16,441 bases of DNA from Pseudomonadota bacterium (GTDB lineage Bacteria; Pseudomonadota; Gammaproteobacteria; Halothiobacillales; Halothiobacillaceae), in NCBI GenBank assembly GCA_021795795.1, contig JAJYPA010000135.1:1-16441 (forward strand), in the 5' to 3' direction. Under the pieces are notes generated by a model, which was not told the origin of the DNA, made no database searches, and worked only from the letters and a program-made list of their open reading frames with translations. Both the position numbers and the translations under genes were made by a program. This document shows, piece by piece, positions 839 to 16,441 of this stretch (positions within the stretch are counted from its first letter, which is position 1; every line of letters begins with the position of its first letter).

Positions 839-1426
839 CTATTCACGCGGCTGTTCAAGCGCCTGTGAGATCAGTTTCAGGATGTTTGTCGCCAGATAAG
901 CTTCCGATTGCGTTTCTGTGCTGCCGCCGGGCAGATAGGGGCGCATCGGGTTAATCTGAAAGTGGAAAATCACGAGGCCGATCAGGCTCGTGGTGAGGAA
1001 GTGCGGATCGCAGGTGGGGTTGATGGCCAGAAAGATGTCATGCAGGGCATGACAGGTTTCGGCCATGACGACGTTCACGAGAAACCTGTATCGATCTTCG
1101 TCCTGCTCGATCAGTTCGCGCATGAACAATTGACGGAACATGGGTTGTTCATTCAGGTGGTGGCAGATCAGTCGAATGAAGTTGCCGAGCTTCTCTTCTG
1201 CGGGTTTCTCACCCTTCAGGCAGCCTATCAGACTGGCGCCGTGTTCTTCAAACACAAAGCTCAGGGTTTCCTGATACAGCGTCTTCTTGTCGGCGAAGTG
1301 GTTGTAGAGCGATGGCGCCTTGATCTGACAGGCGCCAGCGATATCGCGCATGGTGATCGTATCGAACCCCCGTGCGGCGAATAATTCGGCTGCGGTCGAT
1401 AGTATGGTGTCCCGAGTGCTGCTCAA
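839..1426 (-). CDS. TetR/AcrR-family transcriptional repressor
   Basis: A 195-residue one-component repressor, a normal length for the family. The N-terminal helix-turn-helix spans about residues 5-50 (AAELFAARGFDTITMRDIA then SLYNHFADKKTLY), the standard TetR signature. The rest is an all-helical ligand-binding and dimerisation domain of unknown ligand. The start is a TTG at 1426 that overlaps the TGA of the upstream gene (TTGA). The only later in-frame ATG falls inside the helix-turn-helix, so the TTG is preferred; an AGGA lies about nine bases before it. It is the last gene of a three-gene operon, and a perfect palindrome sits at the operon promoter (2581-2598). It most likely represses its own operon, and possibly the divergent DUF202 gene. 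The autoregulation is inference; the family call is secure. Confidence 0.93.
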   Translation of the reverse strand: MSSTRDTILSTAAELFAARGFDTITMRDIAGACQIKAPSLYNHFADKKTLYQETLSFVFEEHGASLIGCLKGEKPAEEKLGNFIRLICHHLNEQPMFRQLFMRELIEQDEDRYRFLVNVVMAETCHALHDIFLAINPTCDPHFLTTSLIGLVIFHFQINPMRPYLPGGSTETQSEAYLATNILKLISQALEQPRE

Positions 1427-3118: not shown

Positions 3119-3173
3119 TCGGGTGAGGTTCTGTTTCTTTCTCTCCAACTTTTTTATCTGGCTCGACTACGGA

Positions 3174-3179
3174 TATGAT
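3174..3179 (+). promoter_or_regulatory. Candidate -10 box of the nsrR-like gene
   Basis: TATGAT at 3174-3179 matches a sigma-70 -10 box in five of six positions and would give a leader of about 30 bases to the ATG at 3218. No good -35 box is visible at 16-18 bases upstream (a T-rich tract is there), so the site is tentative. Confidence 0.35.
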
Positions 3180-3217
3180 GAAAAGACGTCCATCCCGGTA
3201 GAAAGGCACCCCTTCTC

Positions 3218-3652
3218 ATGCAATTGAATCAACAAACTGATTACGCATTGCGCGTCCTGCTGTTACTTGCCGAGCAGGAATCTGTTGAGCCTCAACACCT
3301 GTACACAATCAAGGAAATTGCCGAGTTTCATCAAATATCTCGAAACCACCTGATGAAGATTGTTAACTCCCTGGCAGAGCAAGGGTATGTGCAATCACAG
3401 CGTGGGAGAAATGGGGGGGTGAAGCTGGGTAGGTCAAGCAAGGACATCAATATTGGCGAGGTCGTGCGCGGCATGGAAAACAGTTGGGCTCTGGTCGATT
3501 GTTTTTCACCGACGGGATCCCATTGTCGGATTCAGGGCCGATGCCGATTGCAGCCTGTACTCCAGCAAGCGCTTCATGCGTTCTGGAGTACATTGGATCA
3601 GTTCAGTCTTGCGGATGTTTCAACTCGTCCTGTCATACCAGGCAGGTTGTAG
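3218..3652 (+). CDS. nsrR: Rrf2-family NO-sensing repressor, NsrR-like
   Basis: A 144-residue Rrf2-family regulator, the size of NsrR. NsrR is an iron-sulfur repressor that leaves DNA when nitric oxide attacks its cluster. The winged helix occupies about residues 1-75, with the NsrR-like pieces TDYALRVLLLLA, SRNHLMKIVNSL and RGRNGGVKLG. Three cluster cysteines follow: Cys95, Cys103 and Cys109 (C-X7-C-X5-C). The NHL/K helix and the context (convergent with a globin gene whose promoter carries an NsrR-like palindrome) favour NsrR over IscR. The ATG at 3218 begins the canonical MQL N-terminus; an AAAGG lies about 12 bases before it. Family call is strong; the NsrR assignment is likely. Confidence 0.85.
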   Translation: MQLNQQTDYALRVLLLLAEQESVEPQHLYTIKEIAEFHQISRNHLMKIVNSLAEQGYVQSQRGRNGGVKLGRSSKDINIGEVVRGMENSWALVDCFSPTGSHCRIQGRCRLQPVLQQALHAFWSTLDQFSLADVSTRPVIPGRL

Positions 3653-3658
3653 TCACGC

Positions 3659-3704
3659 GGCTCCTGACATCGTTACGATCTTCTTTGCTGGAATGTTAGG
3701 AGCC
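3659..3704. repeat. Long-loop inverted repeat between convergent genes
   Basis: Arms GGCTCCT (3659-3665) and AGGAGCC (3698-3704) enclose a 32-base loop holding a smaller ATCG/CGAT stem. It lies in the 65-bp gap between the convergent nsrR-like and globin genes. There is no T-tract, so it is not a standard intrinsic terminator, though it could weakly stop transcription both ways. Confidence 0.3.
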
Positions 3705-3717
3705 GATTCGCGGTGCT

Positions 3718-4119
3718 TTATGCGGCGCTTTGCATGGTCGTTGCGATCAGTGTGTATGCTTCTGTCCATGCTCCTTTTACCTCGGGTGTGAAGGCCGGGC
3801 CTAGTCCTTTTTCAAGGGCCCACAAGAGAGCGGCCCCCACCGTGGCATATTGGTGATTCTGTACACCGTAGCCTTTGTGGCGTTTCCCCATGTCCTGCAG
3901 AATCGGCACCATCGGTTCGAGTCGGTCGAGGGCGTTTACAACCGTGTTGATGGATATCATGAGCTTTTTGCCTTGCTCTGCCATGTCGTCTTTGAACATG
4001 GGTTTAACGCTGGGGTCGAGCTCGAATAGTTTGTTGTAAAAAAGTTCGGCGGCTTGTTCCTTGATGGGTACAACTTGCGCCCATGTGCTTCGAACCAGGT
4101 CTTTTTGCTGGGGGGTCAT
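3718..4119 (-). CDS. Single-domain bacterial globin (Vitreoscilla haemoglobin-like)
   Basis: A 133-residue haem protein of the flavohaemoglobin-type globin fold without a reductase domain. It is expected to bind oxygen and nitric oxide and take part in NO detoxification or oxygen supply. By hand alignment with Vitreoscilla haemoglobin, the key haem-pocket residues are Tyr28 (B10, ELFYNKLF), Gln49 (E7) and His81 (proximal F8, GKRHKGYGV). The ATG at 4119 is chosen because GGAG lies seven bases before it; the TTG at 4137 would add six residues without a better ribosome site. The promoter carries an NsrR-like palindrome and the adjacent gene encodes an NsrR-like repressor, so induction by NO is expected. 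The reductase partner is not in the window. Confidence 0.9.
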   Translation of the reverse strand: MTPQQKDLVRSTWAQVVPIKEQAAELFYNKLFELDPSVKPMFKDDMAEQGKKLMISINTVVNALDRLEPMVPILQDMGKRHKGYGVQNHQYATVGAALLWALEKGLGPAFTPEVKGAWTEAYTLIATTMQSAA

Positions 4120-4197
4120 AATGATTCTCCGAGTCAAAGTCGTTTGTGGGATGCTCTCGTGCCCTGTCGATCAGCAATGGGGCAACGTGCATGGCAC

Positions 4198-4221
4198 ATC
4201 CCGGCGACTGAGCACCGGGAT
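4198..4221 (-). repeat. Inverted repeat in the globin 5' leader
   Basis: Seven-bp arms ATCCCGG (4198-4204) and CCGGGAT (4215-4221) with a 10-base loop. It lies between the predicted globin promoter (near 4253) and the ATG at 4119, so it would fold in the untranslated leader of about 120 bases. No T-tract follows. Its role is unknown. Confidence 0.4.
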
Positions 4222-4252
4222 GAATTGATAACAGCAGGAAACAGGCCAATTT

Positions 4253-4281
4253 ATAATATGTATCTGAAATACATATTTAAT
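4253..4281 (-). promoter_or_regulatory. Globin promoter with overlapping NsrR-like site
   Basis: TATTAT on the minus strand (4253-4258) is the best -10 box. At 17 bases the -35 is weak (ATTAAA, 4276-4281). The palindrome at 4255-4277 covers the -10 and the spacer, the usual geometry for repression. Confidence 0.45.
4255..4277. promoter_or_regulatory. NsrR-like operator palindrome
   Basis: A 23-bp palindrome built 11-1-11: left half AATATGTATCT, centre G, right half AAATACATATT. Ten of eleven positions are symmetric. The ATGTAT..ATACAT core matches the gammaproteobacterial NsrR pattern as I recall it (ATG-C/T-ATTT repeated inverted around one base). It lies at the globin promoter, about 600 bp from the nsrR-like gene. 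No equally good copy is visible upstream of nsrR itself. Confidence 0.75.
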
Positions 4282-4430
4282 GCGGGTAGTCGTGTGGTCG
4301 TGGTATTTGCTCAGATGAATTCCTGCTTCATAAAAGGGAGTTCATTGCAGTGATCGCCCAAGCGTAGTGCATTGTTTGATCGGGCTCGTAGGGGAAAAGC
4401 AGGTTCGGTACTGTGTTGTTATTCCGCGTA

Positions 4431-4460
4431 TTGCGTTTTCAGCGGGTCATGAATTATCAT
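4431..4460 (+). promoter_or_regulatory. Probable umuDC promoter
   Basis: TTGCGT (4431-4436) and TATCAT (4455-4460) are spaced by 18 bases, upstream of the umuD start. The transcription start would fall near 4467, inside the palindrome at 4462-4484. No LexA box (CTG-N10-CAG) was found. The rest of the 359-base gap 4138-4496, apart from the globin leader, shows nothing else recognisable. Confidence 0.45.
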
Positions 4461-4461
4461 A

Positions 4462-4484
4462 TTGAATAATGTAACTTTATTCAA
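4462..4484. promoter_or_regulatory. Perfect palindrome, candidate UmuD-type repressor operator
   Basis: Perfect 8-bp arms TTGAATAA (4462-4469) and TTATTCAA (4477-4484) enclose TGTAACT. It begins one base past the -10 box and ends 12 bases before the umuD GTG, an ideal operator position. As I recall, the Acinetobacter UmuDAb/DdrR-regulated promoters share arms TTGAAA/TTTCAA around the same TGTAAC core, which this site matches closely. It is not a LexA box. Confidence 0.65.
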
Positions 4485-4496
4485 GAGTAAAGATTA

Positions 4497-5237
4497 GTGG
4501 ACTCATCTAACCGTTCATCACCTAAAAAAACACGCGTTTGCGATTCCAACGGGCATGGTGGTGCGCGTTCCGGGGCGGGGCGGCCCAAGGGTCAGGGGCG
4601 TTGGGGCGAGCCCACGGTGCCGGTTCGGGTGCCGCAAAGCCGGGTGGCGGTGGTCAAGGCTTTGCTGGATACACTGCCCGCGTTACCCGCCCTGAATGGC
4701 AATGACCAAAAACTCCCAAATCAAGTGGGTGAGGTACCAGTCATTGCTCGGGCGAGGGCCAGTAAGGAGCCGCTTTCACCGGATGCCTGGTCCGATGTGC
4801 TGGCCGCATCGGGGTTGATTCCGCGGCAGCCGGCCACTGTGTCGCCCGTGTTGACGTTGCCCCTGTTCGGTTATCGGATTGCGGCGGGGTTTCCGTCTCC
4901 GGCGGATGATTATGTCGAGGAGCGCATCGACCTGAATCGGCATTTGATCCGGCACAAGGAAGCCACGTTCTTTCTGCGCGTGCAGGGGGATTCGATGATC
5001 AATGCCGGAATTCACGATGGCGATATGCTGATCGTTGATCGGGCTATCGAGCCGGTATCGGGCAAGATCGTGATTGCGGCGCTGGATGGAGAGCTCACGG
5101 TCAAGCGGCTATCGACTATCGGCGGCGTGGTGCGTCTGCTGCCGGAAAACCCGGATTACCCGGTGATCGAGATCGGTGCGGAGCAGGAGTTGGTGATCTG
5201 GGGTGTGGTGATTCATGTCATCCATGCGCTGGGCTGA
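4497..5237 (+). CDS. umuD: UmuD-like autoproteolytic protein with long N-terminal extension
   Basis: A 246-residue LexA-fold S24 peptidase; E. coli UmuD is 139. The C-terminal part matches UmuD: cleavage bond Ala130-Gly131 ([21 protein letters not shown] region), catalytic Ser166 (GDSMINAG) and Lys203 (GELTVKRL). The gaps from cleavage site to Ser (35) and Ser to Lys (37) equal those of E. coli UmuD. RecA-stimulated self-cleavage gives the polymerase V subunit. The roughly 125-residue extension has an AT-hook-like GAGRPKG (residues 26-32), then a strand-helix stretch ([20 protein letters not shown], 40-59) that resembles a ribbon-helix-helix element. It may be a DNA-binding part, making this a UmuDAb-like self-repressor. 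GTG 4497 is the only reasonable start, as an in-frame TAA lies at 4488-4490; its ribosome site is weak. It overlaps umuC. Confidence 0.9.
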
Positions 5238-6561
5238 GAAAATGCCGGTTTCAGTATCTCCCCGATTGGACAGTACGCGGCGCAAGCCGGTATTTGCACT
5301 GGTCGATGGCAATAATTTCTATGTATCTTGCGAGCGGGTGTTCAATCCGGCGCTCGAGGGGCGTCCGGTCGTGGTGTTGTCGAATAACGATGGCTGTGCC
5401 GTCGCCCGTTCGGCAGAAGCCAAGGCGCTGGGGATTGCGATGGGGCAACCATGGTTCCAGATTCAGTCGATGGCGCAGTCGCATGGTCTGGTCGCCCTGT
5501 CGTCGAACTATGAGCTCTACGCGGACATGAGTAACCGCATGATGCGGATCCTGGCCGATTTTTCTCCCCGTCAGGAAGTCTATTCGATCGATGAATGCTT
5601 TTTGGATTTACGGGGGATGGATGTCGATCTGACGTTATTGGGGCACAGGATGCGCCAGCGTGTCGCACAGTGGATTGGTATTCCGGTCGGAATCGGGATT
5701 GGAGAATCCAAGACGCTGGCGAAGCTGGCCAATCATCTGGCGAAAAAACAGCCGCAGTGGCAGGGCGTGTGTGACTTGACCGCGCTGGAGGAATCGGCGC
5801 AGGATCGTTTGATGGCTTGTGTCGATGTCGGTGATGTCTGGGGTGTCGGGCGGCGCTTGAAAGAGCAGCTCAACGCGCGGGGTATTGTTACCGCGCTGGA
5901 TCTGAAACGCGCCGATCCGGTGATTGTTCAGCGGCAATTTTCGGTTGTATTGGCGCGCACGGTACGCGAGCTTCAGGGTATTTCCTGCCTGCCGCTGGAA
6001 TCGGTGGTGGCGCCCAGGCAACAAATCATCGTCAGTCGCTCATTTGGCAAACCGGTGTGGTATCTACCCGAACTGCGTCAAGCCATCACGGCGCACATGA
6101 GCCGCGCGGCCGAAAAGCTCAGAGCGCAAGCCAGCGTAACGCAGATGGTGCAGGTCTTTATTCGCACCAGTCCATTCAGTGCTCGGCCTTTTTATAGCCA
6201 GGGCATCACACTGCCCTTGGCTGCGGCCAGCGATGATACCCGCTTGCTGGTTAAAATCGCCCAGCAGGGGCTGGGGCGAATCTATCGAGCAGGTTTCGAA
6301 TATCAGAAGGTCGGCGTGGTGCTGATCGACATCCAGCCCAAAGGGCAGGGCGCGCGGACGGATTTATTCCACAATGCACAACACGACCGGCGCACAGACC
6401 AACTAATGCAAACACTCGACGCGATCAATGCCCGAATGGGCAAGCATACGCTGAAACTAGCCGGGGAAGGGTTCGCACAGCCTTGGGCCATGAAGCGCAA
6501 TCGGCACACACCGGCCTATACGACTGATATTCGGCAATTGGCGCGGGTGGTGGCAATGTGA
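5215..6561 (+). CDS. umuC: UmuC, Y-family translesion polymerase V catalytic subunit
   Basis: Catalytic subunit of error-prone DNA polymerase V, which copies past lesions together with processed UmuD and RecA. The product has 448 residues; E. coli UmuC has 422, and the excess is mostly about 25 residues at the N-terminus. Catalytic acids are Asp31 ([10 protein letters not shown]), Asp126 and Glu127 (YSIDECFLD); Tyr36 is the likely steric-gate residue. The ARTDLF stretch (380-385) stands where UmuC proteins carry a beta-clamp-binding motif, here degenerate. The ATG at 5215 overlaps the end of umuD by 23 bases, implying coupling. Later ATGs at 5224 and 5242 are also possible because the conserved homology begins only near residue 26. 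Regulation should follow umuD. Confidence 0.96.
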
Positions 6562-14824: not shown

Positions 14825-15586
14825 ATGAGTATAGAAAAGAAAATTTGTTTGGCAGGGATTGATATGGCTTGGGTGAGCGATCGCAACCCCACAGCCATTG
14901 CGATTGGTCAAATCCATGAGCAGCAACTGCTGGTGACTGCCATACACACCCAGCGATATGGCATCGCACAAATCATCGAATCGCTGGAATCGGCGCCCGA
15001 TTTAACAGGCGTGGCCATCGATGCACCAACCATCATCACCAATCAAGGCGGTGCGCGCGCATGCGAGATGGCCCTGAACAGGGTGTATGGACGGCGCAAG
15101 GCCGGTTGTCACCCAACGAATCTGGCGCGTTTTCCCTATGCCGATAGCGTAGCCTTGGCGAATTGGCTGGAACAAGAAGGGTTCGAACACGCCAATCCGA
15201 TGGCCACACGTTGGCAAATCGAGTGCTATCCGCATCCGGCGTTGATTGAGATTTTTGGCCTACCCGAGCGTCATCGTTATAAAAAAGGTACGGTACAAGA
15301 ACGCAAAGAAGGACAGGTCGCGCTTGCGGATATGCTTTTACGGCTCAAAAGATCAACTGTACTGAGTTTGCAGGTTGCCGCTGACCTGAACTATTTTTTT
15401 GACGCTGAACATATATACCATCTGCGCGGAGCCGCACTGAAACACAATGAAGATGTACTCGACGCCATTATTTGCTTGTATATCGCAGGCCTTTTTGCGT
15501 GTCTAAGCTCGGGGACTCTATTTGGCGACGCGAAAGCTGGCTATATTTATGTGCCGCAGCGATTGGCAATATTACCTTGCCCCTGA
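14825..15586 (+). CDS. DUF429-family protein (predicted RNase H-like fold)
   Basis: A 253-residue protein of the DUF429 family, predicted from known relatives to have an RNase H-like fold and possible nuclease activity; no biochemical role is established to my knowledge. Typical pieces are an early acidic residue in AGIDMAW (residues 10-16), the AIDAPTI strand (64-70), GRRKAGCHPTN (89-99), ECYPHPALIEIFGLPERHRYKKG (near 133-155), EDVLDAIICLYIAG near 217-230 and the C-terminal AGYIYVP. The scattered conserved Asp/Glu could form a metal site. The ATG at 14825 has no ribosome site but follows a candidate extended -10 closely. It is divergent from the SDR/photolyase operon. An IS3 element begins at or just after its stop, so the last few residues (RLAILPCP) may be altered. 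Confidence 0.87.
   Translation: MSIEKKICLAGIDMAWVSDRNPTAIAIGQIHEQQLLVTAIHTQRYGIAQIIESLESAPDLTGVAIDAPTIITNQGGARACEMALNRVYGRRKAGCHPTNLARFPYADSVALANWLEQEGFEHANPMATRWQIECYPHPALIEIFGLPERHRYKKGTVQERKEGQVALADMLLRLKRSTVLSLQVAADLNYFFDAEHIYHLRGAALKHNEDVLDAIICLYIAGLFACLSSGTLFGDAKAGYIYVPQRLAILPCP
14828..14856 (-). promoter_or_regulatory. Candidate SDR-operon promoter inside DUF429 start
   Basis: On the minus strand TATACT (14828-14833) is a five-of-six -10 box, and CTGCCA 17 bases upstream (14851-14856) matches four of six -35 positions. The site lies within the first codons of the DUF429 gene and would give the SDR gene a leader of about 22 bases. Confidence 0.4.
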
Positions 15587-15596
15587 AAAACGTATC

Positions 15597-15625
15597 CCTT
15601 GCAGTGTGATTTAATTTACGCAAGG
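15597..15625 (+). promoter_or_regulatory. Hairpin covering the orfA ribosome site
   Basis: CCTTGC (15597-15602) can pair with GCAAGG (15620-15625), which overlaps the AAGGAG ribosome site of orfA (15622-15627). Such sequestration is a known way for insertion sequences to block expression from read-through transcripts. The stem is only 6 bp, so it is tentative. Confidence 0.35.
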
Positions 15626-15899
15626 AGAACGACATGACAAAGACAACACGGGCGCGTTATACGCTTGAATTCAAACAAGAGGCGGTGCGGCTGGTTGAAG
15701 GCGGCCAGAGTCAGGCATCGGTGGCAAGAAGCCTCGGGGTGTCTGATCAGACGCTGTTTGACTGGGTCAAGGCGAGTCGGCAGGGGGCGCTCAAGGGGGC
15801 CGATCGGACGCCGGTGAGCGCGGAGCAGACGGAGATTTCCCGCCTGCGTGCCGAGCTTGCCCGAGTGAAGATGGAGCGCGACATCCTGGAAAAGGGTGA

Positions 15900-15937
15900 G
15901 CCCAAAAGCAGGACATCCTGTGAATGTCCTGCTGGGC
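15900..15937. repeat. Hairpin element inside orfA
   Basis: Perfect 9-bp arms GCAGGACAT (15908-15916) and ATGTCCTGC (15924-15932) with a 7-base loop, extended by GCCC (15900-15903) and GGGC (15934-15937). It makes up most of the 41 bases that break orfA. Confidence 0.8.
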
Positions 15938-15952
15938 GAACGCGTACTTCGC

Positions 15953-15976
15953 CAAGGGTGCAAACAAGGGTGCAAA
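15953..15976 (+). repeat. 12-bp tandem duplication in orfA/orfB junction
   Basis: CAAGGGTGCAAA occurs twice back to back (15953-15964 and 15965-15976). Being a multiple of three, it keeps both frames but adds four residues just before the orfB start. Confidence 0.85.
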
Positions 15977-16441
15977 GTGAAGTACGCCTTTATTCAGCGT
16001 CATTGCACGGTGTGGCCGATCAGCGTGCAGTGTCGGGTGCTGAACGTTAGCGTCAGCGGCTACCATGGGCATCTGGCTCGCCAAGCGAGCACTGCGCCGC
16101 GTCGATACCTCAGTGATTGAGCGCTGCTGGTGCCGATCAAGGCCATTCACACACGAACAAAGCGTGCGTACGGCTGGCCGCGTATCTGGCGGGAACTGCG
16201 CAACGAGGGCGTGCGCGTGGGCAAGCAGCGCGTACAAACCTTGATGCGCATGCACGGCATTCGCGCCAAGGGCAAGAAACGCTTCAAGGTCACCACCGAC
16301 AGTAACCATGACTTACCCATTGCACCGAACCTGCTCAACCGCCAGTTTGGCGTGCGCAAGCCAGATACGGTGTGGGTTGGCGATATCACCTATATCGCCA
16401 CCGACGAAGGCTGGCTGTTCCTTGCCGTGGTGATTGACCTG
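15977..16441 (+). pseudogene. IS3-family orfB transposase with nonsense codon, 3' end missing
   Basis: The catalytic part of an IS3 transposase, in the -1 frame relative to the original orfA. It starts GTG-AAG-TAC (VKYAFIQRH), continues through VSVSGYHGHLARQ and RYLSD, then meets an in-frame TGA at 16118-16120. The same frame resumes with ALLVPIKAIH, AYGWPRIWREL, and reaches the rve core VWVGDITYI, whose Asp is the first catalytic acid of DDE. The TGA could come from a CGA codon by one C-to-T change. The other two acids would lie beyond the window. With the orfA break, the element should not make transposase. Confidence 0.85.

Follow-up and report, generated by a model that had tools for sequence, protein, structure and literature searches.

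A umuDC operon of the Halothiobacillaceae probably repressed by its own UmuD, with a DNA-binding domain and operator akin to those of UmuDAb

The umuDC operon and the palindrome before it

The window, that is, the whole stretch of 16,441 nucleotides analysed here, derives from a member of the Halothiobacillaceae, is Halothiobacillus-like and carries a umuDC operon (Table 1). The product of the first gene matches Pfam Peptidase_S24 at residues 122-239 (E 2.9e-34) and the UmuD subfamily model PRK10276 (NCBIfam) at residues 129-243, scoring 167.5 bits where the cut-off is 110, and is a member of the UmuD subfamily. The winged-helix domain of LexA (PF01726) found no match in this protein in Pfam scans, and the NCBIfam lexA model scored below its cut-off and covered the S24 part only. 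UmuC matches Pfam IMS, IMS_C and DUF4113, as well as the NCBIfam UmuC model (PRK03609) above its cut-off; an alternative ATG for umuC is found at 5242, just past the umuD stop. The best named match of UmuD is a protein of Halothiobacillus neapolitanus c2 (P0004; 90%). The protein encoded at the related locus L120, in genome G023, is identical to P0004, and G023 is therefore very probably the H. neapolitanus c2 strain.

Just upstream of umuD lies TTGAATAATGTAACTTTATTCAA, a 23-bp palindrome with two perfect 8-bp arms and a core, TGTAACT, that is itself nearly symmetric (GT-A-AC). A search for both arms around any 7-base core, allowing up to three mismatches, returned this site as the single match in the window, and the same arm search gave a mean of 0.03 matches in 200 dinucleotide shuffles. 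The palindrome begins 1 base past the putative -10 element and ends 12 bp 5' of the GTG start codon. Three related loci (L001, L002 and L120) show ttgcgt or ttgcct, an 18-bp spacer and tatcct at the same positions, and the order of -35, 18-bp spacer, -10, operator and GTG is common to them and to the window. Judged from this layout, it is reasonable to place the palindrome on the expected transcription start of umuD. A LexA box (CTG-N10-CAG) is absent from positions 4141-4500, and four copies occur elsewhere in the window. The first-pass annotation had reported a perfect palindrome at the expected umuD start and a missing LexA box, and both observations hold, the promoter layout being repeated in the three relatives. 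The likeness that it saw to the operator of Acinetobacter UmuDAb also agrees with the literature, which describes a 21-bp operator whose TTGA/TCAA arms are separated by 13 bp and whose GTnAC core is the critical part (PMC11332147). The window has the same arms and core, but 15 bp between the arms (5+5+5) and 23 bp overall; in our reading of the same source, the known UmuDAb site is divided 4+5+4 between its arms.

In L001, L002 and L120, a DUF202 gene adjoins umuD and stops 62-65 bp short of the operator core; in the window, 1344 bp separate the DUF202 gene from the operator, and this interval holds an nsrR-like gene and a globin gene (block 3119-4461). Promoter and operator are kept despite the nsrR-globin block. 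The second perfect palindrome of this region (Table 1), which lies close to the NsrR-like gene, looks like an NsrR-type site, and we assume that the set forms a nitric-oxide response unit. The end of the window, from about 15574 to 16441, consists of IS3-family transposase sequence with plasmid matches.

Table 1. Coordinates of the features of the window discussed in the text
Feature	Position	Strand	Remarks
TetR gene	839..1426		
NsrR-like Rrf2 gene	3218..3652	+	below the NsrR cut-off (NCBIfam)
Globin gene	3718..4137	-	second palindrome upstream
Second palindrome	4255..4277		AATATGTATCTGAAATACATATT; perfect
Putative -35 of umuD	4431..4436	+	ttgcgt; read from the sequence
Putative -10 of umuD	4455..4460	+	tatcat; 18-bp spacer from the putative -35
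Candidate operator	4462..4484	.	TTGAATAATGTAACTTTATTCAA; arms TTGA/TCAA, core GTAAC, 5-5-5 spacing
umuD	4497..5237	+	246-aa product starting at GTG; domain of DNA-binding type at the N-terminus, then a variable linker and the S24/UmuD' domain
N-terminal domain, residues 19-62	4551..4682	+	basic AT-hook-like GHGGARSGAGRPKGQGR, then WGEPTVPVRVPQSRVAVVKALLDTL (predicted non-helical segment and helix)
Predicted self-cleavage site, codons of Ala130-Gly131	4884..4889	+	catalytic Ser166 and Lys203 downstream
umuC	5215..6561	+	Pol V catalytic subunit; longest frame, overlaps the end of umuD

The N-terminal domain of UmuD and its likeness to UmuDAb

The S24 part of UmuD is preceded by a domain of about 40 residues with the pattern GGxRxGAGRPKG...GEPTxxxRVPxS. 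The motif GGxRxx(A/S)GR is present within the first 110 residues of 115 of the 120 UmuD homologues listed (of 7675 matches), and in a 22-row alignment of the domain the residues G, G, R, G, R, E and P are invariant. Pfam scans of these 22 members returned nothing meaningful, RHH profiles included, and no Pfam model covers the domain; NCBIfam and Pfam scans of two standalone domain proteins were empty, and searching the PDB with the domain profile turned up nothing beyond short matches that look like chance (procarboxypeptidase, E 0.015). One viral GGKRxGAGR protein matched RHH_5 weakly (E 0.26). The GAGRPKG stretch of UmuD found no match to an AT-hook profile; its GRP core is what, in our view, makes it resemble an AT-hook.

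An AlphaFold2 model of UmuD (79 rows; mean pLDDT 72.8) is of low confidence in the basic stretch (pLDDT about 50-58 in GAGRPKG) and then places a non-helical segment followed by a helix at residues 47-62, with a pLDDT of 85 in the block 41-50. The same order is predicted for a shorter family member, with the helix at 31-41. Neither a strand nor a second helix is assigned in the domain in these models, which are of monomers, so that a dimer cannot appear in them. The modelled non-helical segment may be strand-like, and we give about even chances to the domain combining an AT-hook-like arm and a ribbon-helix-like unit.

The N-terminal sequence of UmuDAb was recovered from the mutagenesis primers in Table 2 of PMC4807011, with the wild-type residues restored at the mutated places. 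The primers translate to GRKAKYQ-E-PTKVI and RVPESQVAFI-KR-WLLDN, which the residue numbers make contiguous (17-46). The fragment scores 34.5 bits against the domain profile over positions 14-37, compared with at most 6.7 bits in 2000 shuffles; it starts at residue 17, and the GGxR part would precede it. The window UmuD, itself a row of the profile, scores 76.1 bits. Glu24 of UmuDAb corresponds to a Glu present in 22/22 rows of the alignment, and the column of Lys40 holds Lys in 10/22 and Arg in 3/22 rows (Lys or Arg, 13/22). According to PMC4807011, the substitutions E24K and K40P/R41P, as well as deletion of residues 2-59, derepress umuDAb and ddrR in A. baylyi, and induction is blocked when UmuDAb is non-cleavable. 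The distances from the cleavage-site Ala to the catalytic Ser and from Ser to Lys in the window protein (36 and 37 residues) equal those of UmuDAb (83/119/156; same source). The helix-turn-helix model given there for the N-terminus of UmuDAb has a helix at residues 22-29; the aligned residues are non-helical in our AlphaFold2 model, which disfavours a helix-turn-helix and calls the putative LexA-like model into question.

Distribution of the operator, the domain and LexA

The association of the operator with the domain was assessed in several ways. With seeds from Halothiobacillus half-sites and training sequences of less than 75% identity, leave-one-out scoring detected TTGAWTA...TAWTCAA before 29/36 umuD genes with the domain, leaving seven of the 36 without a significant element, versus 2/23 umuD genes without the domain; one of these 23 controls (L176) carries a domain variant and was kept in the counts. 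Scoring arms and core together, with a consensus that was not blind, 25/29 non-redundant domain umuDs and 0/23 of the others reach p 0.05. Arms taken from Halothiobacillus only pick out 16/36 versus 0/23, and a consensus-free dyad test leaves the groups unseparated (7/36 versus 3/23).

Searching 369 genomes of the class for the operator only, with at most one mismatch, gave 14 sites, ten of them before domain genes, versus 2 in the reversed control, the W positions of the pattern having been chosen, not blind, after viewing upstream regions from the same genomes. The four other sites lie inside unrelated coding genes and were taken as chance. A form of the 21-bp UmuDAb box was found in 0/369 of these genomes, so that no Acinetobacter chromosome entered the comparison. 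Four of the ten domain-gene sites are tandem copies at two loci of genome G211, before standalone proteins of 90-91 aa; because these proteins sit behind operators, domain and operator keep company also without the S24 part. At both loci (L191 on C16 and L200 on C88), the tandem operators are about 32 bp apart, as in an iterated autoregulatory array.

An exact operator-only scan of IMG/VR, which are independent data, returned 13 loci (reversed control 0/3), including the close-relative pairs L225/L232, L228/L230 and L229/L236. A gene with the domain or with GGxRxGAGR lies directly downstream at 6/13 loci by HMM, or at 8/13 if two recognised by reading are included, and encodes a UmuD-type protein (L226, L229, L236), a protein of 111 aa (L225, L232) or 70 aa (L237), or one of 195 aa with the motif near its C-terminus (L228, L230). 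At L227, L231, L233, L234 and L235 there is no such gene downstream. The viral GGKRxGAGR proteins of 111, 195 and 70 aa match the profile in the basic motif alone and not in the half that follows; since this motif is all that they share with the profile, it may carry much of the specificity. Taken together, these computations establish the coupling of operator and domain.

Four of the viral loci (L225, L228, L230 and L232) encode phage- or plasmid-like GGKREGAGRK proteins with a possible ribbon-helix-helix segment after the motif. Their operator is TTGAATAAAGTTACTTTATTCAA or differs from it by one base, and a second, similar copy lies further up in L225, L228 and L230.

A umuC gene was found by tblastn within 2.5 kb downstream of 19/36 domain umuDs, those of the Halothiobacillaceae included; for the other 17, only about 1.1 kb of downstream sequence was at hand in 11 cases and the full 2.5 kb in 6, and no umuC-like frame was present in the nine of them that were inspected. 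In view of this count, we do not regard a umuDC operon as the usual setting of domain umuDs, and a one-protein circuit would hold in no more than some members of the class. The umuDs of Vogesella and Pseudogulbenkiania (L010, L026) have the appearance of self-cleaving repressors that stand alone, as UmuDAb does. They belong, with L005, L158, L171 and others, to the roughly half of the domain umuDs that have no adjoining umuC and may be solo repressors.

Within the Halothiobacillaceae, the operator precedes all eight umuD copies whose domain and upstream region are readable, besides that of the window. A scan of 27 genomes of the family with 18 fixed bases (arms and GTnAC core) gave 17 sites with up to three mismatches; the core was added to the pattern because the arms on their own, at three mismatches, returned mostly chance-like sites. 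All seven sites with at most two mismatches precede domain umuDs (three in G001 and one each in G002, G023, G030 and G033), none being found away from umuD in the 27 genomes, and the remaining ten, with three mismatches, compare with six in the reversed control. G001, a Halothiobacillus genome, has three umuD loci (L001, L003 and L004), all with domain and operator. The core varies: it is GAAAC in two of the G001 copies, GTTTC in G033 and GCAC in G022, whose operator is a 22-bp form, TTGAATAACGCACAATATTCAA. One of the three-mismatch sites is kept between G001 (C49:37184) and G002 (C89:23817; L151), upstream of what looks like a release-factor gene.

The LexA-type domain PF01726 was found in 1/10 genomes of the first related loci. 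The 27 Halothiobacillaceae genomes comprise six with a domain umuD, one (G034) with a umuD cut at the contig edge, ten with LexA and ten with neither, and none has both umuD and LexA (PF01726). A check for lexA proposed in the first-pass annotation thus came out as expected when run in the relatives: the LexA domain is absent from all six genomes with the domain UmuD, and from these relatives we infer that the genome of the window lacks LexA as well. In the seven umuD-bearing genomes of the family, the umuD genes are the only PF00717 matches, and RecA is present. In G023 and other relatives with only one S24 match, Pol V, if it works there, must be served by this same UmuD. In the class sample, LexA occurs in 8/28 domain genomes versus 223/341 others (Fisher p 1.8e-4), where the others include five weak or short-frame matches (of 33 domain matches) and the genomes are related and of unstated completeness. 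Lack of LexA is no requirement for the domain, given the LexA-type domain in eight of the 28; the class is over-represented in genomes that lack LexA, without being limited to them.

A candidate one-protein circuit and its alternatives

We consider it quite likely that the UmuD of the window represses its own umuDC operon and that RecA-stimulated self-cleavage ends this repression; each step, from binding and repression to cleavage and induction, is proposed here by analogy with UmuDAb, whose homologous domain and similar operator have been tested by others (PMC4807011 and PMC11332147). A UmuD dimer would bind the palindrome at the transcription start through its N-terminal domains, contacting the AT-rich TTGA/TCAA arms and the GT(n)AC core, and would block transcription. 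Upon DNA damage, RecA filaments would stimulate UmuD to cut itself at Ala130-Gly131, which would separate the DNA-binding domain from the S24 domain and lift repression, and the same cut would yield UmuD', the UmuC-activating subunit. A single protein would thus combine the roles of sensor, repressor and polymerase subunit, and would do so in bacteria whose near relatives are without LexA. The variation of the core (GAAAC, GTTTC, GCAC) counts against this proposal, since the core is critical for UmuDAb (PMC11332147).

That the palindrome is instead the site of another regulator, such as NsrR, a CRP/FNR-type protein or TetR, and that the N-terminal domain of UmuD does something else, for example binds a partner, seems to us quite unlikely. 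AT-rich palindromes are common regulator sites, and an NsrR-like and a TetR gene lie nearby; however, the nsrR and globin genes come with a palindrome of their own that is unlike this one, and the three relatives that have no such block between the DUF202 gene and umuD keep the operator. Moreover, the element tracks the UmuD domain across lineages, is mostly absent from umuDs without it, and accompanies standalone domain proteins too. Even less probable, to the point of being hardly credible, is an mRNA hairpin or terminator-like element, as which a perfect 8-bp inverted repeat near a start codon could fold: the arms are AT-rich, it is the base identity of TTGA/TCAA that is kept rather than the pairing, a pure dyad score misses the group that the sequence picks out, and the palindrome follows directly on the -10 element.

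A wider, SOS-like regulon, in which repression by UmuD would extend from umuDC to other repair genes by way of weaker or different sites, is unlikely in our estimate. It has a precedent in UmuDAb, whose repression covers several umuDC loci as well as ddrR (PMC7273328 and PMC8565304), and cross-control is possible in G001 among its three operator-bearing umuD loci. Against it stand the scan of the 27 relatives, in which the three-mismatch sites are near the reversed-control number, the place of the one recurring site (G001/G002) before a release-factor-like rather than a repair gene, and the recA upstream regions of seven genomes (one with only about 50 bp), which contain neither the operator, the best stretch having 7-10 mismatches of 18, nor CTG-N10-CAG; in view of the latter, the circuit seems limited to umuDC. 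The first-pass annotation had suggested a damage circuit outside Acinetobacter with a UmuD-type protein as repressor and had looked to palindrome copies near other repair genes. The domain, its coupling to the operator and the lack of LexA in relatives favour such a repressor, whereas the circuit over further repair genes finds no backing in the sites, which stand only at umuD. The absence of copies with at most two mismatches near repair genes counts against a regulon and leaves a private, autoregulated umuDC untouched.

The operon differs from the closest known systems in several respects. In E. coli, the N-terminal arm of UmuD has 24 residues, and the protein is LexA-controlled. The UmuD' domain and the operon with umuC are the same here, but 130 residues, including the DNA-binding-type domain, precede the cleavage site. 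From LexA the window UmuD differs in the lack of PF01726, in its operator and in having, as far as seen, a single target operon. HdiR of the Streptococcaceae and the non-canonical LexA of Bacteroidetes are likewise S24 repressors of error-prone polymerases or SOS genes in the absence of LexA; unlike the UmuD considered here, they are phage-repressor-like, distinct from the polymerase subunit and have other motifs (PMC8565304). With UmuDAb the window UmuD has in common the homologous N-terminal domain (17-46 compared), the cleavage and catalytic spacing, the TTGA/TCAA arms, the GTnAC core and a host without LexA (Acinetobacter according to the papers; here according to relatives). It differs in that the UmuD of the operon itself, beside umuC, is the presumed repressor, that sites are found only at umuD and that the operator has 23 bp rather than 21; the polymerase accessory function, according to PMC4807011, is absent from UmuDAb.

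On balance we lean, with some reserve, towards a broader view: a portable DNA-binding module (basic GGxRxGAGR, strand-like segment and helix, with no helix-turn-helix) and its operator, TTGAWTA..GT(n)AC..TAWTCAA, would form a widespread class in proteobacteria, plasmids and viral contigs, which within a umuDC operon makes a one-protein SOS circuit and of which UmuDAb would be a solo member and no invention of its genus. The DNA-binding domain family of UmuDAb would then reach across beta- and gammaproteobacteria and further, usually accompanied by its own operator and in about half of the cases beside umuC. Such a class would show a possible origin of UmuDAb and how bacteria without LexA keep a mutagenic polymerase silent until it is needed, by a simple one-protein damage switch that is testable in a sulfur-oxidising bacterium. 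The literature treats UmuDAb as belonging to Acinetobacter or the Moraxellaceae and ascribes to it a putative LexA-like helix-turn-helix (PMC4807011, PMC11332147, PMC8565304), and it describes DdrR as restricted to Acinetobacter (PMC7273328). We found no report naming this UmuD class in the open-access literature, including PMC6511836, PMC8565304 and PMC7273328, and a search for LexA together with Halothiobacillus gave only unrelated-looking papers.

Acinetobacter itself offers two further loci. On one Acinetobacter plasmid, a umuD that carries the domain comes with a 21-bp site of its own (TTGATTTTGTTACAAAATCAA) and is followed by a DUF4113 gene. On a plasmid of Acinetobacter junii (L205, 2492-2632), an annotated hypothetical protein of 46 aa comprises nothing but the domain, and its gene is preceded by a 21-bp operator.
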